Shown: positions 9,530-29,890 of the stretch, piece after piece
Numbering within the stretch: position 1 is the first letter of the stretch
Layout: each line of letters opens with the position of its first letter
Source of the DNA: Phytomonospora endophytica
Lineage (GTDB): Bacteria > Actinomycetota > Actinomycetes > Mycobacteriales > Micromonosporaceae
Reading direction: 5' to 3'
Assembly (NCBI RefSeq): GCF_014202425.1
Contig: NZ_JACHGT010000015.1
Span: 1 to 64,000, forward strand
DNA length: 64,000 nt
Translations under genes and position numbers: made by a program
The notes under the pieces: model-generated
What the model saw: the letters and a program-made list of their open reading frames with translations, nothing else
Told to the model about the DNA's origin: nothing
Database searches by the model: none

Positions 9530-9569
9530 CCCCTGGATCGGGCCTGTGCCGCCCTTGTAGGTTCCCGGG

Positions 9570-10034
9570 ATGAGCGATGAGACGCGGATCCGTTCGGCGG
9601 TGGAGGCGGACGCGCCCGTGATCGCCGCAATCCACCTGGCCTCCCGGGCGGCGGCCATGCCCTACCTGCCGCCGCAGAAGCGGAACCACGAGCAGGTGAC
9701 CCGATGGGTCCTCGACGTCGTGCTCAAGGAATGCCGCGTCTGGGTCGCGGTGACCGGTGCGGAGATCGACGGCTACGCGGCCCTCGACGGTGACCTGCTC
9801 GAACACCTCTACCTGCGTCCGGACGCGCGCCGGCGCGGGATCGGCACCCTGCTGCTCGACGAGGTCCGGCGGCACAGTCCCGCGGGCCTGTCGCTGCACG
9901 TCTTCCAGCAGAACGCCGAGGCCCGCGCCTTCTACGAGCGCCACGGCTTCACCGTCCTGGAGCTCGGTGACGGGCAGGGCAACATGGAGAAGCTGCCCGA
10001 CATGACCCTGCGCTGGACCCCGGACGCGCGCTAG
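9570..10034 (+). CDS. GNAT-family N-acetyltransferase
   Basis: A 154-residue single GNAT domain. The acetyl-CoA pyrophosphate-binding loop is visible as RPDARRRGIGTLLLDEV (about residues 85-101), with the following beta-strand SLHVFQQNAEARAFYERHGF typical of motif B. The acceptor amine is unknown. TAGGTT lies 12 bases before the ATG, so translation may be leaderless. The stop overlaps the stop of the convergent PfpI gene by four bases (10031-10034). Confidence 0.9.
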   Translation: MSDETRIRSAVEADAPVIAAIHLASRAAAMPYLPPQKRNHEQVTRWVLDVVLKECRVWVAVTGAEIDGYAALDGDLLEHLYLRPDARRRGIGTLLLDEVRRHSPAGLSLHVFQQNAEARAFYERHGFTVLELGDGQGNMEKLPDMTLRWTPDAR

Positions 10035-10588
10035 CCGAGCGCCTTGGCGATCGCGCCGACGAAGTCGTCGAGGTCGCCGGGATCGCGCGAGGTGATCAGG
10101 GTCCAGCCGCCGGTGTCGTCGCTGACGACGGACCGGTCGACCCACTCGCCGCCCGCGTTGCGGATGTCGGTCCGCAGCGAGGCGTAGGACGTGAGCGTCT
10201 TGCCGCGTGCCGCGTCGGCCTCGACCAGTACCCACGGCCCGTGGCAGATCGCGGCCACCGCCCGCCCGCCGGTGCGGAACGCCCCGACCAGGCCGACGGC
10301 GGCGCCGTCCTGGCGCAGCTTGTCGGCGTTGAGCGTCCCACCGGGGATCAGCAGCAGGTCGTAGGCGGACGCGTCGGCCGCGCTGATCGTCAGCGACGGG
10401 TCGACGGTCTCGCCGGGGTCCTTGTCGCCGACGAGCGTCCGGATCGGTTCGTTCTCGGCCGCGGCGACGTCGACCTGGGCCCCGCCTTCGCGGAGACGTG
10501 CGACGGGAACGAGCAGTTCGTCCTGTTCGACGCCGTAGTTGGTCACGATGGCCAGAACGCGCCGTCCGCGCAGGCTGGTGGACTCCAT
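10031..10588 (-). CDS. DJ-1/PfpI-family protein, last gene of the B12-uptake operon
   Basis: The 185-residue protein carries the PfpI/DJ-1 fold with an acidic residue near 21-24 (VEQDEL) and the nucleophile elbow AICHGPW, placing Cys115 and His116. Family members are deglycases, chaperones or proteases; no substrate is evident. The gene begins 28 bases after the stop of the EcfS gene on the same strand with no terminator between them. It is thus probably the sixth cistron of the riboswitch-controlled operon 16534-10031. That position is unusual for this family. A protective or corrinoid-processing role is speculation; read-through into an unrelated gene is equally possible. Confidence 0.85.
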   Translation of the reverse strand: MESTSLRGRRVLAIVTNYGVEQDELLVPVARLREGGAQVDVAAAENEPIRTLVGDKDPGETVDPSLTISAADASAYDLLLIPGGTLNADKLRQDGAAVGLVGAFRTGGRAVAAICHGPWVLVEADAARGKTLTSYASLRTDIRNAGGEWVDRSVVSDDTGGWTLITSRDPGDLDDFVGAIAKALG

Positions 10589-10616
10589 GGCTATCCCCTC
10601 CCTGTTCGCCTGTCGC

Positions 10617-11456
10617 CTACCCGTCCGCGCCGGGCGTCAAACCCCCAGGTCGCGGGCTCGTTTCGAAGCGCACCGGCACGCCGAAGGCCGCCCTCCGCGA
10701 CGCCCGCCGGAGCACGGCGAGCACGGCCGGGCCGGCCAGGATGATCGCGATGAGGTTGGTGACCGCCCGTCCGGTGTCCCAGCCGAAACTCGACGTCGTC
10801 ACGGTGAACACGAAGAAGGTGTGCAGGTTCTCCCCGGGCGTGGCCGCCGGGTTGAAGCCGAGGCTCGTGCCGATCGCGGTGAACGGCCAGAACCACATGT
10901 TCATGATGAAGCCGAAGGCGTAGGCGGCGACGACTCCGTAGGCCGCCAGCATCGCGATCTCGGCCTTGCCCGTGACGCGTTTGGGCAGCAGTCCGGCGCC
11001 GAGCCCGATCCAGGCCGAGGACACCATCTGGAAGGGCAGCCACGGCCCGACGCCGGCGGTGAGCAACGCCGAGGCGAACAGCGAGGTCGCGCCCATCGCG
11101 AAACCGAATCCGGGCCCGAAGACCCGTCCGGCGAGCACGAGCAGGAAGAACACGGTCTCGATCCCGGCCGTTCCGGCGCCGAGGGGGCGCAGCCCGGCGT
11201 TGACGGCCGACAGCACGCCGAGCAGGGCCAGGACCTTCGGGTCGATGCCGCCGGAGGACATCTCGGCGAGGACCACGGCGAGGATGACCGGCATCGCGAT
11301 GAGGAAGATCAGGGGCGCGTCGGCCGAGTGCGCCATCGCCTCGGGCTCCGGGGGAGCGAACAGGGGCCAGAAGAACATCGACAGCCCGGCGAGGCTGGCG
11401 ACGGTCAGCACGAAGGCCGTGCGGAGGTTGATCCGGAGGACCGACACGCGGTTCAC
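10617..11456 (-). CDS. ECF transporter substrate-binding S component, predicted cobalamin/corrinoid specific
   Basis: A 279-residue integral membrane protein with about six hydrophobic segments and a short cytosolic N-terminus. LRTAFVLTVASLAGLS is followed by alternating helices including a Gly/Ala-rich GFGFAMGATSLFAS stretch, as in S components of energy-coupling-factor importers. It would bind the vitamin in the membrane and topple within the EcfT/EcfA module encoded just upstream. The GTG start at 11456 overlaps the TGA of the ATPase gene (GTGA), so translation is coupled. Specificity for cobalamin is inferred from the riboswitch and the transcobalamin-like partners, not from the S component sequence itself. 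Confidence 0.85.
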   Translation of the reverse strand: MNRVSVLRINLRTAFVLTVASLAGLSMFFWPLFAPPEPEAMAHSADAPLIFLIAMPVILAVVLAEMSSGGIDPKVLALLGVLSAVNAGLRPLGAGTAGIETVFFLLVLAGRVFGPGFGFAMGATSLFASALLTAGVGPWLPFQMVSSAWIGLGAGLLPKRVTGKAEIAMLAAYGVVAAYAFGFIMNMWFWPFTAIGTSLGFNPAATPGENLHTFFVFTVTTSSFGWDTGRAVTNLIAIILAGPAVLAVLRRASRRAAFGVPVRFETSPRPGGLTPGADG

Positions 11457-13057
11457 GACGCCTCCTCGGCGAGTGCCGCCGCGACCTGCTCGACGGTGAG
11501 CCAGGGCGCCAGGACCTTGGCGACCTGGGGCGCGAAGGCGGGGGAGGAGACGACGACCTCGGCGGTCGGCCCGTCGGCGACGATCTCGCCTTCGGCCATG
11601 ACGACGACCCGGTCGGCGGCCCCGGCGACGAACTCCACGTCGTGGGTGGCGACGACGACGGCCCGCCCGGCCGCGGCCTGTGCCCGGACGGTCTCGGTGA
11701 AGTGGCGTTTGGCGTGGTAGTCGAGGCCGCGCGTCGGCTCGTCGAGCAGGACCACGCCGGGCGCCGAGGAGAGCTGGACGGCGAGGACGAGCGCGAGTTT
11801 CTGGCCTTCCGACAGGTCGCGCGGGTGCCGGTCGCCGGGGATGCCCGGCGCGAGCGCGTCGAGCAGCGTGCGGCAGGTTCCGGGCGGGACTTGCGACTCG
11901 GTGTCGCCCTGCTTGCATTCGGCGTCGACGGTGTCGAGGTAGATGAGGTCGCTCGCGGTCTGCGGGACGAGCCCGACGAGCGCGCGGGCGCCTTTCGCCG
12001 AGGCCTTGCCGGGGTCGGTGCCGCCGACGTCGACGGTTCCCGACCGGCGGGGACCCGAGCCCTGGAGCGCCCACAGCAGTGAGGACTTCCCGGATCCGTT
12101 GCGGCCCATGAGGGCAAGGACCTCCCCGCCGCGCAGGTCGAGGTCCACTCCGCGCACGGCGAGGGTCTGTCCATAAGCGACGGTGACCCGTCGTGCCGTG
12201 AGGCGTGCGGCGCCCGGCTCGGCCGTGTTCGTCGCCGGTTCGCGGCCCCGGAGTCGTTCGTGCAGCCCGGCGGCCCGGCGGCGGGCGTCGCGCACCGACA
12301 GCGGCGGCGGTTCCCAGCCCGCGAGCCGCGCGAGGCGCACGACCGGCGGCGCGAGGTCGCTGTCGGCGATGAGCGTGGCCGGTTCACCGTCGACGACCCG
12401 TCCGTCTCCGTCGAGCCGGACGAGCCGGTCGGCGTACTGGAGGACCCGCTCGACCCGGTGCTCGGCGACCAGCACGGTCGTGCCTAGATCGTGCACGAGG
12501 CGGATGATCGCGGCCAGGACGTCCTCGGCGGCGGTCGGGTCGAGCGCGGAGGTCGGTTCGTCGAGGACCAGCACCTTGGGATGGGCGGTCAGGACCGCGC
12601 CGATGGCGACCCGCTGCTGCTGCCCGCCGGACAGTGTCCGCAGTGGACGTCGACGGAGTTCGGCGATGCCCAGCAGGTCGAGGGTCTCCTCGACGCGTTT
12701 GCGCATCACCTCCGGTGACGTCCCCAGCTGCTCCATGCCGTAGGCGAGTTCGTCTTCGACGGTGTCGGTCACGAAGCCCGCCAGGGGATCCTGGCCGACG
12801 ACGCCGACCAGTTCGGCGAACTCCTGGGGCGCGCGGTCCTCGGTCGCGTGGCCGTCGACGGTGACCCGCCCGTGCAGTGTTCCGCCGGTGAAGCGAGGGA
12901 CGAGCCCGTTGACGGCACCGAGCAATGTGGACTTTCCCGCGCCGGTGCGGCCCGTGACCAGGCACAGCTCCCCTTCGGGGATGTGCAGGTTCACACCGGC
13001 GAGCACGGGCGTGCTCGCTCCGGCGTGGAAGAAGGTGACGTCGTCGAAGCGGATCAT
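11453..13057 (-). CDS. ECF transporter ATPase, two fused ATP-binding domains (EcfA1-EcfA2)
   Basis: The 534-residue protein contains two complete ABC ATPase domains. The first has Walker A GRTGAGKST (36-44), signature LSGGQQQR (142-149) and Walker B VLVLDEPTSALD (163-174). The second has Walker A GRNGSGKSS (318-326), signature LSEGQ (415-419) and a DEPTRGLD Walker B. A linker of about 40 residues joins them. It supplies the energy for the ECF importer together with EcfT and EcfS. The ATG at 13057 follows the EcfT stop by two bases. EcfA1 and EcfA2 are separate proteins in many bacteria; the fused form is well known in actinobacteria. Confidence 0.95.
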   Translation of the reverse strand: MIRFDDVTFFHAGASTPVLAGVNLHIPEGELCLVTGRTGAGKSTLLGAVNGLVPRFTGGTLHGRVTVDGHATEDRAPQEFAELVGVVGQDPLAGFVTDTVEDELAYGMEQLGTSPEVMRKRVEETLDLLGIAELRRRPLRTLSGGQQQRVAIGAVLTAHPKVLVLDEPTSALDPTAAEDVLAAIIRLVHDLGTTVLVAEHRVERVLQYADRLVRLDGDGRVVDGEPATLIADSDLAPPVVRLARLAGWEPPPLSVRDARRRAAGLHERLRGREPATNTAEPGAARLTARRVTVAYGQTLAVRGVDLDLRGGEVLALMGRNGSGKSSLLWALQGSGPRRSGTVDVGGTDPGKASAKGARALVGLVPQTASDLIYLDTVDAECKQGDTESQVPPGTCRTLLDALAPGIPGDRHPRDLSEGQKLALVLAVQLSSAPGVVLLDEPTRGLDYHAKRHFTETVRAQAAAGRAVVVATHDVEFVAGAADRVVVMAEGEIVADGPTAEVVVSSPAFAPQVAKVLAPWLTVEQVAAALAEEAS

Positions 13058-13059
13058 GG

Positions 13060-14238
13060 TCACTTCCTCGCGGCCCGCGGTGGGCCGCCGACGGGCAGGG
13101 CGGCCGGTGCGGTGCCCTGGGCGGGGATCTCGGCGGTCGCCGGTTCCTGTGTCGACTCCGGCGGCGGCGCGAGCCAGGCCGGGAGCACGCCGATGAGGAT
13201 CGCGACGGCCGGGAGCAGGCCGACTTCGGGCCAGGTCAGTGGATTCAGCGAGGGATAGAGGTTCGCCGGGTCGACGCGGGTCGTGAGGTACATCAGGGTT
13301 CCGGTGGCAAGACCCGAGGCGACGACGGCGAACTCGCCCGGCCGCCACCGGTCGGGTCGGTAGCGGCTGCGGCGGACGCGCCTGCCACCGATGACGAAAC
13401 CGGCGGTCGCCACGGCCAGTCCGGCGGCGAGCATCGGCGCGCCCATGTACCGGGGCGTCGAGGCGTCCATGACGCCGTAGAGCCCGGCGCAGACGCCGAG
13501 AAGTCCTGTCACGACGAGGGATCCGGTCAGCAGCCGCGTCCCGCGAGGCACGTGGCCGGTGCGACCGTAACCGCGCGAGGCCATCGCGGCGGCCAGGGCC
13601 AGCGAGCGGTTGAGGGCGTCTTCCAGGACGGGTATGAGGATTCCGCGCAGAGCACGCAGGCCCTTCTGCCCGCCGGCGCGCAGGCGGCGCGCCCGTCGCA
13701 CCCGCAGGACGCTCTCCACGAGCTGCGGTGCGACGGTCAGCGCGACCACCACCGCCGTCCCGATCTCGTACAGGGCACCGGGAAGCGCCTTGAGCATGCG
13801 CTTGGGGTTGGCCAGCGCGTTCGCCGCGCCGACGCACACGACCATAGTCGCCAGTCGCAGCCCGTCGTAGAAGCCGCCGAGGATCTGCTCGACCGCCACC
13901 GCCCCGAACAACCGGATCCCCGCCGCCCACTCCGGCAGTGGGATCTCGGGCAGTGTGAACAAGACGATGTCGCCCTGCCCGCCACCGAACACGATCCGGA
14001 AGACCACCCGCATGGTCACGATGAACGCGCCAAGGAAGAGGTACATCCGGAAGGCCAGCGCCCACGGCGCGTCCCCGCGGCGACGCACGACGACGAAACC
14101 GCACACCGCCAGGATCATCACCAGCAGGATCGGGTTCGTCGTGCGACTCGCGGCCGTCGCCAGGCCCAGTGACCACAGCCACCACGCACCGGGGTGAACG
14201 GTGCGGGGCAGCGGCGGCCACCGGTCCCGGAGGCTCAA
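13060..14238 (-). CDS. ECF transporter energy-coupling transmembrane protein (EcfT)
   Basis: A 392-residue CbiQ/EcfT-type permease. After a short polar N-terminus come membrane helices (WWLWSLGL, PILLVMILAVCGFVVV, FLGAFIVTMRVVF), the amphipathic coupling region LVESVLRVRRARRLRAGG, and the coupling motif AMASRGYGRTG, the diagnostic A-x-x-x-RG signature that contacts the ATPases. Additional C-terminal helices and a Pro/Ala-rich tail make it longer than the usual 250-280 residues. The TTG at 14238 is proposed because it overlaps the TGA of the upstream gene (TTGA), matching the tight overlaps elsewhere in this operon. Longer frames run into the upstream coding sequence. Confidence 0.88.
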   Translation of the reverse strand: MSLRDRWPPLPRTVHPGAWWLWSLGLATAASRTTNPILLVMILAVCGFVVVRRRGDAPWALAFRMYLFLGAFIVTMRVVFRIVFGGGQGDIVLFTLPEIPLPEWAAGIRLFGAVAVEQILGGFYDGLRLATMVVCVGAANALANPKRMLKALPGALYEIGTAVVVALTVAPQLVESVLRVRRARRLRAGGQKGLRALRGILIPVLEDALNRSLALAAAMASRGYGRTGHVPRGTRLLTGSLVVTGLLGVCAGLYGVMDASTPRYMGAPMLAAGLAVATAGFVIGGRRVRRSRYRPDRWRPGEFAVVASGLATGTLMYLTTRVDPANLYPSLNPLTWPEVGLLPAVAILIGVLPAWLAPPPESTQEPATAEIPAQGTAPAALPVGGPPRAARK

Positions 14239-15125
14239 CTCGTCTCGCCGCGGCGGGCGAGTCTCCGGCGCCAGGCGATCGCGCCCCCGCCGACCGCGAG
14301 CAGGGCCACCACGCCGATCCCGGCGAGCGTGCTGCCGGGAATGCCGCCCTCGGTGGTGTTCGACGCGCTCTTCAGGCCGTCCTCGCCGACGCCGGTCCAA
14401 TTCGGGGCCTCGGTCGGCAGATCGGCCGGACCGGGACCGGACTCCACAGTGGACGGAGTGGCGCTCGCCGACGGTGCCGCGGACTCGCCCGGTTTCGGTG
14501 CGGCCGGGTCGCCGCCGCCGGGTTTCGCGGGTTCACCGCCGGGGCCGGAACCGTTGTCGCCGGGCGGATCGCCGCCGTCGCCGCCGTCATCACCGCCGTT
14601 GTCGCCGCCGGTCGGCGGGGGCGCGGGTCGCTGCGGTGCCACGCCGGGCGGGGGATTGGAGGTCGAGGAGTTGTTCTTGGAGAACGACCAGCCCTCGAAG
14701 CTGCCCTGCGGCGGCTTGCGGTTCATCACGCCCCACTGGCTGTAGGTCCAGTTCCCGCCGTTGGGCGCGTGCCAGTAGCTCCAGTAGGCCGAGGCCGGGG
14801 GCGTGTCGATGCAGGGTTCGTCGGCGGGGCCCGGCTTGCCCTCGACGCGGCAGATGAAGGCCTCGCCCCAGCGGTTCGTCCCGGCGATCTGGATGCCGGC
14901 GTTCTTCAGCGCGGTCAGGCCGGTGGCCTGGTCGCCGGGGGCGCAGCGCACGATCGTGGTGCCGCCGAGCTCCTGGAAGTCGATGATCACGGTGACGCCG
15001 GTGGCGTCGGGGCAGAAGCCGGGCGTGCCCTTGCCCGTGTCGATCGCCGAGGCGGGCGCGGCCCACCCGGCCGTCAGACCGGCCGCGAGGGCGAGGGCCG
15101 TCAGTGCGTTGCGGACGCGTCTCAT
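14235..15125 (-). CDS. membrane-anchored DUF4430 (transcobalamin C-terminal-like) protein
   Basis: The 296-residue protein has a Sec signal peptide (residues 1-28, ending ASA). One DUF4430-like beta domain follows (about 40-135), with TGVTVIIDFQELGG, TNRWGEAFICRVEG and the aromatic signature SAYWSYWHAPNG. A Pro/Gly/Asp-rich spacer of about 110 residues and a C-terminal membrane helix (about 266-286) with a basic tail complete it. DUF4430 is the fold of the C-terminal cobalamin-covering domain of intrinsic factor/transcobalamin. The product should stand on the cell surface on a flexible stalk. It overlaps both neighbours (ATGA at 15122-15125 and TTGA at 14235-14238). I infer that it cooperates with the barrel protein next to it in corrinoid capture. 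Confidence 0.85.
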   Translation of the reverse strand: MRRVRNALTALALAAGLTAGWAAPASAIDTGKGTPGFCPDATGVTVIIDFQELGGTTIVRCAPGDQATGLTALKNAGIQIAGTNRWGEAFICRVEGKPGPADEPCIDTPPASAYWSYWHAPNGGNWTYSQWGVMNRKPPQGSFEGWSFSKNNSSTSNPPPGVAPQRPAPPPTGGDNGGDDGGDGGDPPGDNGSGPGGEPAKPGGGDPAAPKPGESAAPSASATPSTVESGPGPADLPTEAPNWTGVGEDGLKSASNTTEGGIPGSTLAGIGVVALLAVGGGAIAWRRRLARRGETS

Positions 15126-16534
15126 GCCTTCGTCGCCTCCTTGCGCTTGCGCGCGATGAGGAGCAGGACCAGGCCGCCGCCGAGCAGGCCGATCGCCAGG
15201 CCGCCGAAGCCGAGGAGGCTCGCACCGGTCAGCGGAAGTTTGCCGTTGCCTCCCGGACCGGGTGTACCGGGTGCGGTGGTGGTGGCGGTGGTGCCCGAAG
15301 GGCTCGCGGTCGTCGAATCGGAGGGGCCAGGTGAGGCGGGGTCCGAAGTGGATGGAGCGGAGGAGCCGGGCGACGACGGGCTCGGCGAGTCGGAGCCGCC
15401 CGGGTCGGGGTCGGTGACACCGATCTCGCCGAGCGGGATCTGGGCGAGGGTGAGCAGGGCCTGCGGGGTGGCGCGGCGCCAGGTGTCGCGCTGGAGCGGG
15501 TCGAGGCCGTTGGCCTTGGCGTCGGCCAGGATCTCGTCGTTGTAGGCGATCGTCCCGGCGTCGGCCTTGGCCGCGCCCCCGCCGGCCTCGGTGATCTGGT
15601 GCGCGACGACCCACGCGGCGGCCTTGTCGGCCTCGGCCTTGTGGCCGGTCGCGGCGAGGGCCTGCCCGGCCAGGCCGGTGGAGTTGGTGTTCGGCGCGGC
15701 CGTCGGGCCGGACCCGCCGAAGGATCCGTCGGGCTTCTGGATCGACGTCAGCCAGTCGCCGCCCTTCTTCGCGGCGGCCTCGGCGCCCTCCACCCCGTCG
15801 GCCGCGGCCGCCAGCAGCGCCTGCACGGCCATCCCGGTCGAGTCGGGATCGAGGACCGGATCGTCTTGTGCGTCGCAGTTCCCGGTCACACCGCTGCCGC
15901 CGAAGGCGTACGGGTACAGGCGGAAACCGCCCTCGGAGCACTGCTGGTCGATGAGGAAGTCGACGGCGGGCGGCGGGACCTCGCCGCTGCGCACGAGACC
16001 GAGTACGGCGAGGGACTGGTCGAAGGTGTTGCTGTTGTCGTTGCCGGAGGTGACCTTGTCCTTGACCCGTCCCTCCTCCGGGCCCTTGTCCGTCCCGGCG
16101 AGCAGATCCAGGACCTCCTGACGCATGTCGTACTCGCCGAAGGCCTCCGGGTCGGCGCCGGAGACGACCGCCGCGTAGAGGACCTTCGCGGTCGCGCCGG
16201 CGATGCGCTGACCCTTGGTGTCCCACAGATCCAGGGAGAAGTACTCGTACGCGCGGGTCTTCAGCGTCTCGGTGATCTTGTCGGCGACGGCGTCGTCGGC
16301 ACCGGTCGCCTTCAACGCGATGAGCGTGTCGATCGTCAGACCCCAGTCGGCGGTGCCCCAGCCGGAGGGCACGAAGCCCTCGGCGGTGACCTCGCGGGCC
16401 TGCCACGCGGCGGCGGCCCGCGCGGCGGACGGGTCGGCGAGGGCGGTCGGGGACAACACGATCGCGGCGCCTGCCACCACGGAGGTGGCGGCCCCAAGGG
16501 CGGCCAGGGTTCTGGCGGTGGGTCTGCCGGACAT
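15122..16534 (-). CDS. wall-anchored alpha/alpha-barrel protein, intrinsic-factor N-domain-like, LPLTG sorting signal
   Basis: The 470-residue protein has a signal peptide (about 1-33) and a long alpha/alpha-toroid region (about 38-385) with repeats of the form (D/N)STG-x-A-x-QAL (DPDSTGMAVQAL, NTNSTGLAGQAL), and a Ser/Thr/Pro-rich stalk. It ends in a cell-wall sorting signal: LPLTG at 433-437, a hydrophobic helix and a basic tail. The fold is annotated as prenyltransferase/squalene-oxidase repeat, but the protein is secreted, lacks the squalene-cyclase DxDD motif, and is fused by overlap to a DUF4430 gene. The intrinsic factor/transcobalamin barrel has the same fold. It is the first gene after a cobalamin riboswitch and attenuator. 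Sortase anchoring is predicted; no sortase gene is in the window. Confidence 0.88.
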   Translation of the reverse strand: MSGRPTARTLAALGAATSVVAGAAIVLSPTALADPSAARAAAAWQAREVTAEGFVPSGWGTADWGLTIDTLIALKATGADDAVADKITETLKTRAYEYFSLDLWDTKGQRIAGATAKVLYAAVVSGADPEAFGEYDMRQEVLDLLAGTDKGPEEGRVKDKVTSGNDNSNTFDQSLAVLGLVRSGEVPPPAVDFLIDQQCSEGGFRLYPYAFGGSGVTGNCDAQDDPVLDPDSTGMAVQALLAAAADGVEGAEAAAKKGGDWLTSIQKPDGSFGGSGPTAAPNTNSTGLAGQALAATGHKAEADKAAAWVVAHQITEAGGGAAKADAGTIAYNDEILADAKANGLDPLQRDTWRRATPQALLTLAQIPLGEIGVTDPDPGGSDSPSPSSPGSSAPSTSDPASPGPSDSTTASPSGTTATTTAPGTPGPGGNGKLPLTGASLLGFGGLAIGLLGGGLVLLLIARKRKEATKA

Positions 16535-16592
16535 CGGTGGCACCTTTCGACGCGCGCGGGGCGATCGGCGTCGCGGGCCAGGGCGGCGAACC

Positions 16593-16635
16593 AAAAGAGC
16601 CCCTGGCGCATCCGTTGACGAATGCCGCAAGGGGC
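16593..16635 (-). terminator. intrinsic terminator in the cobalamin-riboswitch leader (attenuator)
   Basis: On the minus strand a stem with GCCCCT/AGGGGC at its base and a paired upper part (one mismatch, one bulge, 10-base loop) is followed by TCTTTT (16598-16593). It lies between the riboswitch aptamer and the start codon at 16534, the position of a transcriptional expression platform. An alternative pairing of the terminator 5' arm with GCCCG about 20 bases upstream (16634-16657) could act as antiterminator. The terminator is directly visible; the switching is inferred. Confidence 0.75.
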
Positions 16636-16689
16636 CCGAAAGACTCGGCTACCGGGCTCCACACCGCAGACCATGACAGTGAGAAGCAG

Positions 16690-16820
16690 TGCACGCGCCC
16701 GGCAGGTGTTCCGACTTGCGGCCTTCGCCGCTCACGGTTGCAGGTCAGCGCCGGATTCGCACCGGCTTTCCCTTGCCTTGCACGCGATTCGCTTGTCCGC
16801 CGACGGGCAGTCGGCGACCG
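16690..16820 (-). ncRNA. cobalamin (AdoCbl) riboswitch controlling the ECF/transcobalamin-like operon
   Basis: The minus strand shows the conserved core of class-I cobalamin riboswitches in the right order. First comes GGGAAAGCCGGTGCGAATCC (about 16772-16753), then GGCGCTGACCTGCAACCGTGAG (16752-16731 region). The B12-box follows as a GCAAGTCGGAACACCTGCC-like segment (about 16719-16701). It is followed by the attenuator at 16593-16635 and the barrel gene. High B12 would be expected to stop transcription of the uptake operon. A TAGACT hexamer (16827-16822) could be the -10 element. Confidence 0.93.
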
Positions 16821-16900
16821 GAGTCTACTTCCCGTCACGGTCCGTGCGCCAGGTCGCCGCTGCGATCCGGCCCACATCTGTCCGGAGGTTCACACCCGGC

Positions 16901-16929
16901 TTGACACGTACCGTGCGGCCGCACATACT
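16901..16929 (+). promoter_or_regulatory. sigma-70-type promoter of the plus-strand riboswitch unit
   Basis: TTGACA at 16901-16906 and CATACT at 16924-16929 are separated by exactly 17 bases, which puts the transcription start near 16936, just before the riboswitch core. This is one of the best consensus promoters in the window and supports transcription of the plus-strand barrel/DUF4430 pair from this point. Confidence 0.7.
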
Positions 16930-17050
16930 GCCTGCGCACATCCAATCAGGACGGTAGCGGGGGAAGTCCGGTCGAAGTCCGGCGCTGACCCGCAACGGTG
17001 GGCCGCAACGTATGCGGCGAGCCCGAATACCCGCACCGCCCGTATTGCAT
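16930..17050 (+). ncRNA. cobalamin (AdoCbl) riboswitch controlling the secreted barrel/DUF4430 pair
   Basis: The plus strand has a second copy of the conserved cobalamin aptamer core: GGGGGAAGTCCGGTCGAAGT (about 16959-16978), CCGGCGCTGACCCGCAACGG (16979-16998), and a B12-box-like GCCCGAATACCCGCACCGCC (17021-17040). No T-tract terminator follows. Two hairpins (17114-17136, CCGGTA/TACCGG, and GGCGTT/AACGCC at about 17141-17153) lie immediately before the ATG at 17155, so control is probably translational. The neighbouring minus-strand riboswitch has an attenuator instead. Confidence 0.93.
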
Positions 17051-17154
17051 CGCCCATTTCCCGTCGTGGTCCGCGGGACGGCGACCGGTATCAGGGCGCA
17101 GCCGTCCACGGACTCCGGTACGCGTCTCGCATACCGGAAAGGCGTTAAACGCCC

Positions 17155-18183
17155 ATGTCATTGCGCCTGTTGACGCGAGCCGCCCTTGTCGGCGGACTCG
17201 CGCTCACGGTCTTCGCGGCGACGCCCGCCGTCGCGTCCTCCCCTCCCACCGGCGATCGTGGCGACGCCGCGGCCGGCTGGCTCGCCCGCCACATGGTCGA
17301 CGGCGAACGCTTCGAGGCAGTCTTCGACGGCGTCGCCTACCCCGACCAGGGCCTGACCGTCGACGCCGTGTTCGCCTTCGCCGCGAGCAAGACCGCCGAC
17401 GCCTTCGCCGAGCGTGCCCTGACCTGGCTCGCCTCGCCGGGTGTCACCGGCGGCTACATCGGTGAAGGCACCGAGGCCTACGCCGGTGCCACCGCCAAAC
17501 TGACCCTCGCCGTCCAGGTCCGCGGCGGCGACCCGTCGGCCTTCGGCGGCTTCGACCTCGAAGCGCGCCTCCGCGGCCTGCAGACCCCCTCGGGCCGCTT
17601 CTCCGACAGCTCCCAGTGGGGTGACTTCAGCAACGGCTTCAGCCAGTCCCTGGCCGTCCTGGCCCTCGACCGCACCACCGGCGGCGCGCCCGCGACGGCG
17701 GTCGGCTTCCTCGCCGGAAGCCGTTGCGCCGACGGCGGCTACCCGCTGCTGTTCGCGCAGGCGACCTGCACGAGCGACGTCGACGTCACCGCGATCGCCG
17801 TCCAGGCCCTGATCGCGGCCGGGCGCTGGTCGGACGCCGCCGCCGGACTGTGCTGGCTGCTCTCGGTGCAGTCGGCGAACGGCGCCTTCAGCGCCCTCGG
17901 CGTCGAGAACGCCAACAGCACCGGCCTCGCCGCCCAGGCCCTCCTCGCCGGGGGCAGGTTCACCGCGGCCGCCAAGGCCCGCCAGTTCCTGCGCGGGCTC
18001 CAGGTCGACTGCACCGGAGCGGCCGCCGACCGTGGCGCGATCCGTTTCAAGGCCGGGCCTCTCGACCCGGCGACCGCCACCCGCGCCACCGCGCAGGCCG
18101 TCCTCGGTCTCGCGTCGGTCAGCCTCGGCCGCCTCGACGCGACCGGCGCGCGGTCCGGCGACCCCGTCCTCTCCTGCCAGTAA
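17155..18183 (+). CDS. secreted alpha/alpha-barrel protein, intrinsic-factor N-domain-like
   Basis: The 342-residue protein has a signal peptide (about 1-27, ending VASS). The rest is an alpha/alpha toroid similar to that of the gene at 15122-16534. It has the paired motifs FSQSLAVLAL, DVDVTAIAVQALIAAG and NANSTGLAAQALLAGG, and four cysteines in the last two thirds that could form disulfides. Unlike its divergent relative it has no stalk, LPXTG motif or membrane anchor, so it should be released or associate with other surface proteins. It is the first gene behind a cobalamin riboswitch. I infer corrinoid binding together with the DUF4430 protein encoded 12 bases downstream. A terpene-cyclase role is unlikely given secretion and missing catalytic motifs. 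Confidence 0.88.
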   Translation: MSLRLLTRAALVGGLALTVFAATPAVASSPPTGDRGDAAAGWLARHMVDGERFEAVFDGVAYPDQGLTVDAVFAFAASKTADAFAERALTWLASPGVTGGYIGEGTEAYAGATAKLTLAVQVRGGDPSAFGGFDLEARLRGLQTPSGRFSDSSQWGDFSNGFSQSLAVLALDRTTGGAPATAVGFLAGSRCADGGYPLLFAQATCTSDVDVTAIAVQALIAAGRWSDAAAGLCWLLSVQSANGAFSALGVENANSTGLAAQALLAGGRFTAAAKARQFLRGLQVDCTGAAADRGAIRFKAGPLDPATATRATAQAVLGLASVSLGRLDATGARSGDPVLSCQ

Positions 18184-18195
18184 AGGGAACCCGAC

Positions 18196-18666
18196 ATGAC
18201 CACGCTCACCCGCCGGGCGGCGCTGCTGCTCGCCGCCCTCCTCACCGCCGTCTCCTTCGTCGCCGCCGACCCGGCCGCCCGCCCCGCGCAGGCCGCCGGG
18301 TGCAGCGGCACGACGGGGGTCACCGTCGTCGTCGACTTCACCGCCTTCGGCGGCAGCGTCGAACGCCGTTGCGCGCTCGGCGATCCCGCCACCGGCATCG
18401 CCGCCCTCCAAGGCGCGAGTTTCACCGTCACCGGCACCAGCCGCTGGGGACTCGCCTTCGTCTGCCGTCTCGACGGCCTGCCGACGGCGGCCGCCGAGGC
18501 CTGCGTCAACACGCCACCGACCTCGGCCTACTGGTCGTACTGGCACGGCACCCCGGGCAGCGCCTGGACCTACAGCACTTCCGGTGCCAGCGCTTACAAC
18601 CCGGCGCCGGGCAGCGTCGAAGGCTGGGCCTTCGGCTCGGGCGCGCAGCCGACCGTGGCGCCGTAA
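18196..18666 (+). CDS. secreted DUF4430 (transcobalamin C-terminal-like) protein
   Basis: A compact 156-residue protein: signal peptide (about 1-33, ending AQA) and one DUF4430-like domain with TGVTVVVDFTAFGG, a Cys pair (RRCALGD, FVCRLDG), TSRWGLAFVCRL and the aromatic block SAYWSYWHGTPG that also marks the minus-strand paralog. It lacks the stalk and membrane helix of that paralog. It starts 12 bases after the barrel gene and ends before a strong hairpin, so the two form a bicistronic unit under the plus-strand riboswitch. Predicted role: second half of a split, soluble, transcobalamin-like corrinoid binder. Confidence 0.85.
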   Translation: MTTLTRRAALLLAALLTAVSFVAADPAARPAQAAGCSGTTGVTVVVDFTAFGGSVERRCALGDPATGIAALQGASFTVTGTSRWGLAFVCRLDGLPTAAAEACVNTPPTSAYWSYWHGTPGSAWTYSTSGASAYNPAPGSVEGWAFGSGAQPTVAP

Positions 18667-18675
18667 CGCAGGCGC

Positions 18676-18702
18676 GCCCCGGCGGTGCCGCACCGCCGGG
18701 GC
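18676..18702. terminator. 12-bp perfect hairpin terminator
   Basis: GCCCCGGCGGTG (18676-18687) pairs perfectly with 18691-18702 around a 3-base loop. It separates the plus-strand DUF4430 gene (stop 18666) from the convergent hydratase-family gene (stop 18713) and can serve both. Confidence 0.8.
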
Positions 18703-28939: not shown

Positions 28940-29890
28940 ATGAAGATCCATGCTGCGCTCAAACAGGCCGGTGGCCTGTTCGCCGCCCTCGCCCTGGCCG
29001 GGATCGGTGTGCTCGCCGTGCCCTCGGCCGCCGTCGCCGAGGGCACGCTCACCCTCTCCGGTGAGGCCGCGGAGGCCACGGTGGATGGAGCCGGCAGAGT
29101 CACGCTCACCGTCGCCAACGAAGGCGACGATCCGGTTCGCCTCACCGGGCTGACCGCGCCCACGGGCTTCGACTGCGCGCCCGCCGAGGCGATCCTCGCG
29201 CCCGGCGGCCGGTCCATTCTCGACTGCACCGGGAAGTACGCCGACCGCGAGTCCGCGTCCTTCGGCGTCACCGGCACGGCGGGCAAGACCGAGTCGAGCG
29301 CCGACACGACCGTGCCGCTCCCGAGGACACCCGTCAAGGCCGAGCCGGAGCCCGAGGCCGAAGGCGCGGTCCTCAGCGTCGACGTCAAGGCGAACAAGAC
29401 CACCGTGCACCCCGGTGACCCCGTGACCTACACGATCACCGTCAAGAACGTCCACCCGACCTTCACGATCCTCGACGTCGTCGTCCGCTCTCCCGACGTC
29501 GAGGAATGCGAACGCGACCTCGGTGACATGTCGCCCGGCCAGGTCGAGGAGTACACCTGCGTCTCGCCCGCGCCCGACCAGAGTTTCACCGTCCGCATCC
29601 GCGTCCGCGGCTTCGACTCCGGCGGCACCCAGATCGGCGAACACGACAACGACGTCCGCATCGAGGTCCTGCCGCCCTCACCCAGCCCGAGCGCGAGCTC
29701 CTCGGCCTCCGAGAGCTCGCCGACCCCGAGTACCCCGGTCACCCCGACCGGCCCCGGCAACGGCGGCGGACTCGCCGTGACCGGCCCGACCGCGACCCTC
29801 CTGGCGATCGTGGGCGCGGTCCTGCTCGCGGGCGGCGCGGGCCTGTGGCTCCTCGCCCAGCGGCGCCGCGCGGAGACCTACGGGGACTGA
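28940..29890 (+). CDS. surface protein with DUF11-like domain and LAXTG sorting signal
   Basis: The 316-residue protein has a signal peptide (about 1-33, ending VAEG), two beta-sandwich regions with conserved single Cys pairs (FDCAPAEA/ILDCTG and VEECERDLG/EYTCVSPA), the second resembling DUF11 repeats (VHPGDPVTYTITVKNV), and a Pro/Ser-rich stalk. It ends in a sorting signal: LAVTG, a hydrophobic helix and an Arg-rich tail. LAXTG is recognised by class E sortases of actinobacteria. Function is unknown; probably an adhesin-like or hyphal surface protein. ATG at 28940 is chosen over a GTG at 28928 because GGGAG stands 5 bases before it. Confidence 0.85.
   Translation: MKIHAALKQAGGLFAALALAGIGVLAVPSAAVAEGTLTLSGEAAEATVDGAGRVTLTVANEGDDPVRLTGLTAPTGFDCAPAEAILAPGGRSILDCTGKYADRESASFGVTGTAGKTESSADTTVPLPRTPVKAEPEPEAEGAVLSVDVKANKTTVHPGDPVTYTITVKNVHPTFTILDVVVRSPDVEECERDLGDMSPGQVEEYTCVSPAPDQSFTVRIRVRGFDSGGTQIGEHDNDVRIEVLPPSPSPSASSSASESSPTPSTPVTPTGPGNGGGLAVTGPTATLLAIVGAVLLAGGAGLWLLAQRRRAETYGD

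Follow-up and report, generated by a model that had tools for sequence, protein, structure and literature searches.

We propose that two divergent operons in the genome of Phytomonospora endophytica likely encode a two-piece corrinoid capture system coupled to a vitamin importer of the energy-coupling factor (ECF) type. The operons lie in the first 64 kb of contig 15 (hereafter the window; the genome is 8.35 Mb in 35 contigs and 99%-complete). Each consists of a cobalamin riboswitch followed by genes for an exported alpha/alpha-toroid protein (the barrel) and a small, exported, DUF4430-like protein (Table 1). One pair is anchored and shares its operon with the importer genes, and the other carries no anchor. 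The two proteins would correspond to the two domains that the animal vitamin B12 carriers intrinsic factor (IF), haptocorrin (HC) and transcobalamin (TC) hold in one chain, and together they probably act as a two-piece counterpart of intrinsic factor.

Both window riboswitches exceed the gathering score of Rfam RF00174 (31.5 bits) and align to model positions 1-189. Scanning the whole genome gave five cobalamin riboswitches in total, two of which stand back to back in the window; these scores confirm a preliminary description of this DNA, made from its letters, in which each of two divergent units was headed by a cobalamin riboswitch. A promoter-like site (10/12 positions; 16901-16929, plus strand) lies where the plus riboswitch begins. 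In the minus leader the riboswitch is followed by a hairpin and then UCUUUU (z -1.13, not unusual), and in the plus leader by a hairpin ahead of the start (z -2.65); a terminator scan listed neither hairpin.

The minus unit reads barrel1, DUF1, EcfT, a double-ATPase EcfA and EcfS, with start/stop overlaps of 4 nt at barrel1/DUF1, at DUF1/EcfT, where the EcfT start codon is a TTG, and at EcfA/EcfS. The importer is recognizable as ECF-type from its CbiQ-like EcfT and from the two ATPase domains of EcfA, for which the best NCBIfam model is the ECF ATPase TIGR04520 (266 bits, under the equivalog cut-off of 315). EcfS weakly matches riboflavin and folate S-component models, reaching 23.4 bits against a cut-off of 26.7 for PF07155. 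The EcfS family (29 members, the window’s included; mean column identity 64%) matches TIGR04518 in 21 of its members, at best with 9.5e-6, and a Pfam scan of EcfS gave no match to CbiM, the S-component type of the CbiMNQO cobalt importer. The wall signal and helix of barrel1, the stalk and helix of DUF1 and the overlapping importer genes thus bear out the earlier idea of an anchored pair that belongs together with an ECF transporter.

In the plus unit barrel2 is followed by DUF2, and each ends within 0-1 residue of its domain end. Four cysteine columns of the small domain are conserved in 54-59 of 59 rows, and by inspection the first cysteine of DUF2 is therefore structural and not a lipoprotein site. 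The genome hence does hold the pair twice, in separate adjacent genes, in one anchored and one soluble form, as had been suggested.

Table 1. Features of the two divergent units in the window.
Feature	Position	Strand	Best evidence
Barrel1, exported alpha/alpha-toroid protein, 470 aa, LPLTG wall signal and membrane helix	15122-16534	-	NCBIfam NF053823, 6.2e-23, below cut-off
DUF1, exported DUF4430-like protein, 296 aa, proline/glycine-rich stalk and C-terminal membrane helix	14235-15125	-	NF040672, 1.5e-6, below cut-off
EcfT, energy-coupling transmembrane component	13060-14238	-	PF02361 CbiQ, 1.4e-9, 38.3 bits (cut-off 25)
EcfA, two ATPase domains in a single chain	11453-13057	-	PF00005, two stretches, 3.6e-48
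EcfS, substrate-binding membrane component	10617-11456	-	PF07155, 6.6e-5, and TIGR04518, 7.2e-5, weak and both below cut-off
Cobalamin riboswitch of the anchored/importer unit	16683-16837	-	RF00174, 42.7 bits, E 2.1e-7
Cobalamin riboswitch of the soluble unit	16917-17052	+	RF00174, 37.3 bits, E 7.2e-6
Barrel2, exported alpha/alpha-toroid protein, 342 aa, no anchor	17155-18183	+	AlphaFold2 pLDDT 86.9, pTM 0.89
DUF2, exported DUF4430-like protein, 156 aa, no anchor	18196-18666	+	NF040672, 7.3e-7, below cut-off

The strongest evidence here that both proteins act together comes from repeated gene fusion in relatives, which points to a joint function. Locus L126 encodes a barrel followed by a small domain in a single 513-aa frame, which is the domain order of intrinsic factor; this fusion is flanked by an unfused pair on one side and the importer on the other, and a riboswitch match below threshold lies at 9544-9614. 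In L042 a small domain, a barrel and an LPETG signal share a single frame, and three further loci (L127, L128 and L129) carry small domain-barrel-barrel fusions. The fusion in L127 (6736-10419, minus strand) is a surface protein that also contains an Ig domain, between the small domain and the two barrels; a further small-domain gene and the importer lie downstream of it.

The gene order is likewise kept in relatives, as the preliminary description had proposed should be checked. Among near relatives, the importer genes EcfT, EcfA and EcfS adjoin a barrel and/or small domain in 16 of 23 loci; three of the other seven reach contig ends (L043, L055 and L057), and the fetched stretch holds no importer genes in L042 (a fusion), L058 (a pair), L052 (a pair and a lone small-domain gene) and L061 (a barrel). 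The same three genes are present in all of another 20 loci, a set picked for its variety and for tandem or fused hits. A Streptomyces plasmid carries, in the words of its record, a ‘prenyltransferase/squalene oxidase repeat-containing protein’, a ‘hypothetical protein’, ECF T, ATPase and ECF S, next to which metE follows on the opposite strand. A homologue of barrel2 occurs in 21 of 61 genomes, P. endophytica included. Across 394 sampled genomes of the class, the barrel profile matches in 144 (E 1e-15) and the small-domain profile in 188 (E 1e-5), with at most 5 barrel or 10 small-domain candidates scored per genome; many weaker matches span only part of the profile, as permuted forms like SCO2321/SCO2322 do (see below). 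Plasmid scans found 3 and 5 records, and scans of viral contigs found no relative.

Cobalamin riboswitches also accompany the units of relatives. With the Rfam model, an above-threshold cobalamin riboswitch stands directly upstream of a barrel- or small-domain-led unit in 14 of 30 loci (L047-L050, L052-L054, L056, L058, L060, L066, L127, L131 and L145). Eight of the 30 loci were also scanned less strictly, which added matches of 23-31 bits at the same place in L041, L051 (the weakest, E 0.08), L063, L126 and L148; those in L126 precede both units, the fused gene included, and in L049 a match appeared ahead of the second unit. L064 gave no cobalamin riboswitch match even in this laxer scan. Ten loci without an above-threshold match lay outside it (L042, L043, L055, L057, L059, L065, L146, L147, L149 and L150). 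It is worth noting that in L052 an anchored pair has as its neighbour a single small-domain gene (9969-10679, minus strand), tail-less and preceded by a cobalamin riboswitch of its own, and that L053 has four above-threshold matches within 18 kb.

In the window’s family each pair seems to have been copied and handed down as a whole. Trees were built from 60 barrels and 53 small domains, with neither the L127-L129 rows nor the permuted L145 among them. Eight tail-less barrels of this family form one clade (99/98), and the window’s anchored barrel falls in a separate clade of ten rows (97/94), one of which, L139, has no tail and contains a TGA in its barrel frame. The small-domain tree splits in a like manner into an anchored group (13 rows, 100/97) and a tail-less group (10 rows, 82/67) that is weak, with a bootstrap that had not settled; the tail-less small domain of L139 groups beside the anchored set. 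These parallel splits support the earlier notion of duplication as pairs, with the weakness of the tail-less small-domain split in mind. Anchoring can also be mixed: in the Nocardioides loci L146-L148 the barrel is tail-less and its small partner anchored, and in L055 and L056 (genomes G044 and G057) a tail-less pair immediately precedes the importer genes. A missing tail, then, does not by itself imply a shuttle.

The Streptomyces members are related to those of the window in an unusual way. Locus L145 scores above the cut-offs for both SCO2321 (526 bits) and SCO2322 (220 bits). Its barrel presents profile positions 147-315 first and 20-136 second, and by inspection its small protein starts with the YW-rich half that closes the small proteins of the window. 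Given this swapped order of the domain halves, both proteins of the Streptomyces pair (L145, 6961-9248) are circularly permuted relatives of ours. The window proteins stay far below the same cut-offs, with 81.3 and 102 bits for the barrels (SCO2321, NF053823; cut-off 300 bits) and 28.7 and 29.7 bits for the small proteins (SCO2322, NF040672; cut-off 85 bits).

The family assignment of the small proteins is indirect. Neither DUF1 nor DUF2 matches Pfam DUF4430 (PF14478, cut-off 23.8 bits) at E values up to 1. Two of the 29 small-domain members scanned do, namely L066 (2.8e-6, 28.1 bits), above the curated cut-off, and L060, below it; human IF itself reaches the model at 0.0029 over residues 322-397, also below the cut-off. 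The label is thus owed to relatives, and the DUF4430 identity given in the preliminary description stands for the family through L066 and not for DUF1 and DUF2 themselves. For the barrels, Pfam gave squalene-cyclase and toroid models, all below cut-off.

Kinship of the barrel to the animal carriers is suggested by profile-profile comparison. Sequences of IF, HC and TC were taken from PDB records, and the alpha-domains of four carriers entered the comparison. Direct hmmsearch of the bacterial profiles against IF, HC and TC was not significant (E 56 or worse for the barrel, nothing for the small domain). Comparing profiles, the barrels matched the carrier alpha-domains with P 4e-5 using 32 rows and with P 5.3e-6 (probability 86) using 66 rows, where the best of 60 column shuffles gave 0.05 and the barrel against the beta-domain gave 0.65. 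At the level of profiles, the P value of 5.3e-6 shows kinship of the barrel to the PF01122 family, not membership of it. The match is in register, aligning IF VDTGAMA, DIYSTGLAMQAL and MSIAQILPSL with bacterial DVDxTA, NANSTGLAAQAL and RATAQAVLGL. It places a bacterial D (62/66), N (59/66) and Q (59/66), which rank 11, 24 and 22 in conservation among 312 filled columns, on D153, D204 and Q252 of IF and D176, N224 and Q273 of TC, which we take to be cobalamin contacts. In the window the two domains come from split genes, where the IF/TC family has both in one chain.

The bacterium seems unable to make vitamin B12, judging from its gene content: CobS and CbiC were not found in its 99%-complete genome, and B12-binding matches (PF02310) occur at five places in it, four of them above cut-off. 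The other three riboswitches of the genome precede a ribonucleotide reductase, a thioesterase-like frame and a BtuFCD-like operon; at the second of these (L045, contig 3, 7321-8733, plus strand), a riboswitch of 63.2 bits is followed by a 4HBT thioesterase-like frame and an overlapping LysE-type frame. Across the 61 genomes, CobS is absent from 8 of 21 with the barrel and from 5 of 40 lacking it (Fisher P 0.045), and from 7 of 20 versus 3 of 36 after five genomes less than 90% complete were dropped (P 0.025). Uncorrected for kinship as both tests are, an association of CobS loss with the barrel is only a hint.

Based on these data we can present a rough proposal for how the system would work. 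At low B12 the two riboswitches would permit expression of both units. In human TC the beta-domain is reported to bind first and the alpha-domain to close over it (PMC11107200), and by analogy the first step would be binding of the corrinoid to the small protein, and the second closure of the barrel over it. A split carrier is workable, since human TC domains expressed separately are reported to assemble, and only upon addition of corrinoid (PMC5599065). Being two separate chains, such a trap could reopen, which the single-chain animal carrier hardly does, and we infer that it would bind less tightly and so ease hand-over. With its barrel linked to the wall and its small protein on a membrane stalk, the anchored pair would keep the corrinoid at the surface and pass it to EcfS, which together with the ATP-driven module of EcfT and the double EcfA would import it. 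The unanchored pair, a conserved paralogous set, may collect corrinoid further out or bind it in the wall zone. A more far-reaching proposition, that animal carriers and this system share, by descent or convergence, a two-part trap glued by its ligand and kept by bacteria in two genes, and that the unanchored pair is a secreted, siderophore-like protein set sent out for corrinoid and recaptured by the wall-anchored pair, is on the unlikely side in our judgement.

Several observations count against the proposed capture system and its likeness to intrinsic factor. PF01122, the family of the IF/TC alpha-domain, was matched by barrel1 with only 11.8 bits against a cut-off of 25 and by barrel2 not at all, and 11 of 31 relatives gave weak matches, the best at 0.039. 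Some of the alpha-domain match may be due to the toroid fold that both sides share, as its controls were shuffles and the beta-domain. The barrel2 model, built from 7 sequences, supports the alpha/alpha fold, but its nearest solved structures are squalene-hopene and related class II cyclases (Foldseek 2e-8, against 1.3e-4 for rat TC at rank 29), and transcobalamin is not among the best 50 matches listed by VIA-align. In an hmmsearch of PDB chains the barrel likewise met a cyclase at 1.7e-32, with no IF or TC among the matches listed (60 of 83). The small domain fares worse: its P value against the carrier beta-domains went from 0.0042 with 30 rows to 0.018 with 59, a value on a par with the best of 60 shuffles (0.021), and the DUF2 model from 5 sequences is unreliable (pLDDT 54.6) and gave no meaningful match in Foldseek or VIA-align. 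Kinship of the small domain to the beta-domain is therefore weak and indirect. The claim that the pair has exactly the two folds of IF and TC survives for the barrel and not for the small domain; a B12-controlled uptake unit of two proteins corresponding to the IF/TC domains is supported by riboswitches, gene order, fusions and the in-register barrel match. In addition, the two-unit loci L047, L048, L049 and L056 have an above-threshold riboswitch before one unit only. EcfS matches no PDB chain by sequence, and its substrate is thus deduced from the riboswitch. The BtuFCD-like operon (L046, contig 12, 4597-7652, minus strand) follows a partial cobalamin riboswitch match, so the window system is not the sole likely B12 route. 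Finally, human carriers are reported to release cobalamin only by proteolysis (PMC5997447), and a very tight trap would hinder hand-over.

The same source reports that ECF-CbrT, reconstituted in proteoliposomes, transports cobalamin (PMC5997447), which weighs against the capture system too and fits an importer that takes up B12 alone, with the barrel and the small protein serving at the surface as scaffold, in wall attachment or for protection, and having no contact with the corrinoid. We regard this as improbable, because the well conserved columns of the barrel include the positions that match IF and TC, the two proteins are fused in several architectures, the soluble pair has its own riboswitch, and the pairs in L052 and L058, which have no importer genes in the fetched stretch, carry riboswitches as well. 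A ligand other than a complete corrinoid, such as cobalt ion, cobinamide or another precursor, a lower-ligand base or another tetrapyrrole, also appears quite unlikely. Cobalamin riboswitches are reported to control cobalt and precursor transporters as well (PMC3766115), an ECF-type haem transporter has been described (PMC7299338), and EcfS had no close characterised relative in the searches run. However, EcfS lacks a CbiM match in the Pfam scan, a cell in whose genome CobS and CbiC were not found could make little of free cobalt or early precursors, and the animal carriers with the matching barrel bind corrinoids. That the barrel is an exported enzyme resembling class II terpene cyclases, as the name ‘prenyltransferase/squalene oxidase repeat’ and the closest solved structures would have it, can almost be discounted: the DxDD motif is found at the corresponding place in 0 of 66 barrels, and the protein is exported, B12-regulated and, in the case of barrel1, wall-anchored.

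As for the role of the soluble pair within the capture system we favour, we would give slightly less than even odds that this pair is no diffusing shuttle and instead acts as a second binder (with another corrinoid preference) or a wall-zone binder that delivers directly to the importer. The tail-less pairs of G044 and G057 beside importer genes, the Nocardioides loci with one tail-less and one anchored partner, and the separate clades of tail-less and anchored barrels in the window’s family all agree with direct delivery. Against it, the tail-less pair of the window and of several relatives forms a separate divergent unit, as a scavenger could.

The proposed system has partial parallels among known ones. 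Like animal IF, HC and TC, it is exported and has an alpha/alpha-toroid domain with matching inner-helix motifs and D, N/D and Q positions, as well as a second small domain of DUF4430 type (through relatives); unlike them, it is bacterial, made of two genes, fitted with wall and membrane anchors and coupled to an ECF importer, its barrels fall short of PF01122 and its beta-domain kinship is indirect. Streptomyces SCO2321/SCO2322, families whose names carry no function, have homologous domains, a place before the three importer genes and, in L145, an upstream cobalamin riboswitch, and they differ in their circular permutation and in the low scores of the window proteins against them. The Lactobacillus ECF-CbrT shares the ECF architecture and corrinoid uptake (PMC5997447), and a putative cobalamin ECF transporter of Lacticaseibacillus shares an additional exported (lipoprotein) component (PMC9963975); compared by description, the window differs from both in having S, T and A in one operon, fused ATPases and a barrel partner. 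The Bacteroidetes surface lipoproteins BtuG and BtuH are likewise additional proteins that catch B12 at the surface on behalf of an importer (PMC6143338; PMC8941943), though, again by description, in different organisms with a different cell envelope.

A link between DUF4430 and B12 was already hinted at, and in this respect partly anticipated, in Lacticaseibacillus, where a DUF4430 gene of unknown function lies near rtpR, the gene for an adenosylcobalamin-dependent reductase, and a proteome table names a lipoprotein component of a putative cobalamin ECF transporter, leaving its identity with the DUF4430 protein unstated; the portions of that paper available to us describe no barrel partner or intrinsic-factor-like pair (PMC9963975). 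In the open-licence literature we found no paper on SCO2321-SCO2325 as a B12 system and none on a bacterial transcobalamin-like protein. As far as our searches show, no system has been assigned to B12 capture outside the membrane in Gram-positive actinobacteria. If the pair binds corrinoids, two common families lacking a function would gain one, the two-domain sandwich of the animal carriers would have a bacterial counterpart, and a natural split binder would become useful for B12 sensing. The work suggests that some bacteria run a B12 carrier as separate parts, an idea that the L126 fusion and the soluble pair of the window make directly testable.

The borders of the system are narrower than the 10031-18702 given in the preliminary description: the plus unit stops at 18666, and 10031-10588 (minus strand) is a DJ-1/PfpI gene on the strand of EcfS, 28 nt after it, whose membership is unsupported. 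Elsewhere in the window, an open frame at 29672-29875 (plus strand) matches the C-terminal stalk and sorting tail of barrel1 (7.7e-4) and is perhaps a second wall-sorted protein.

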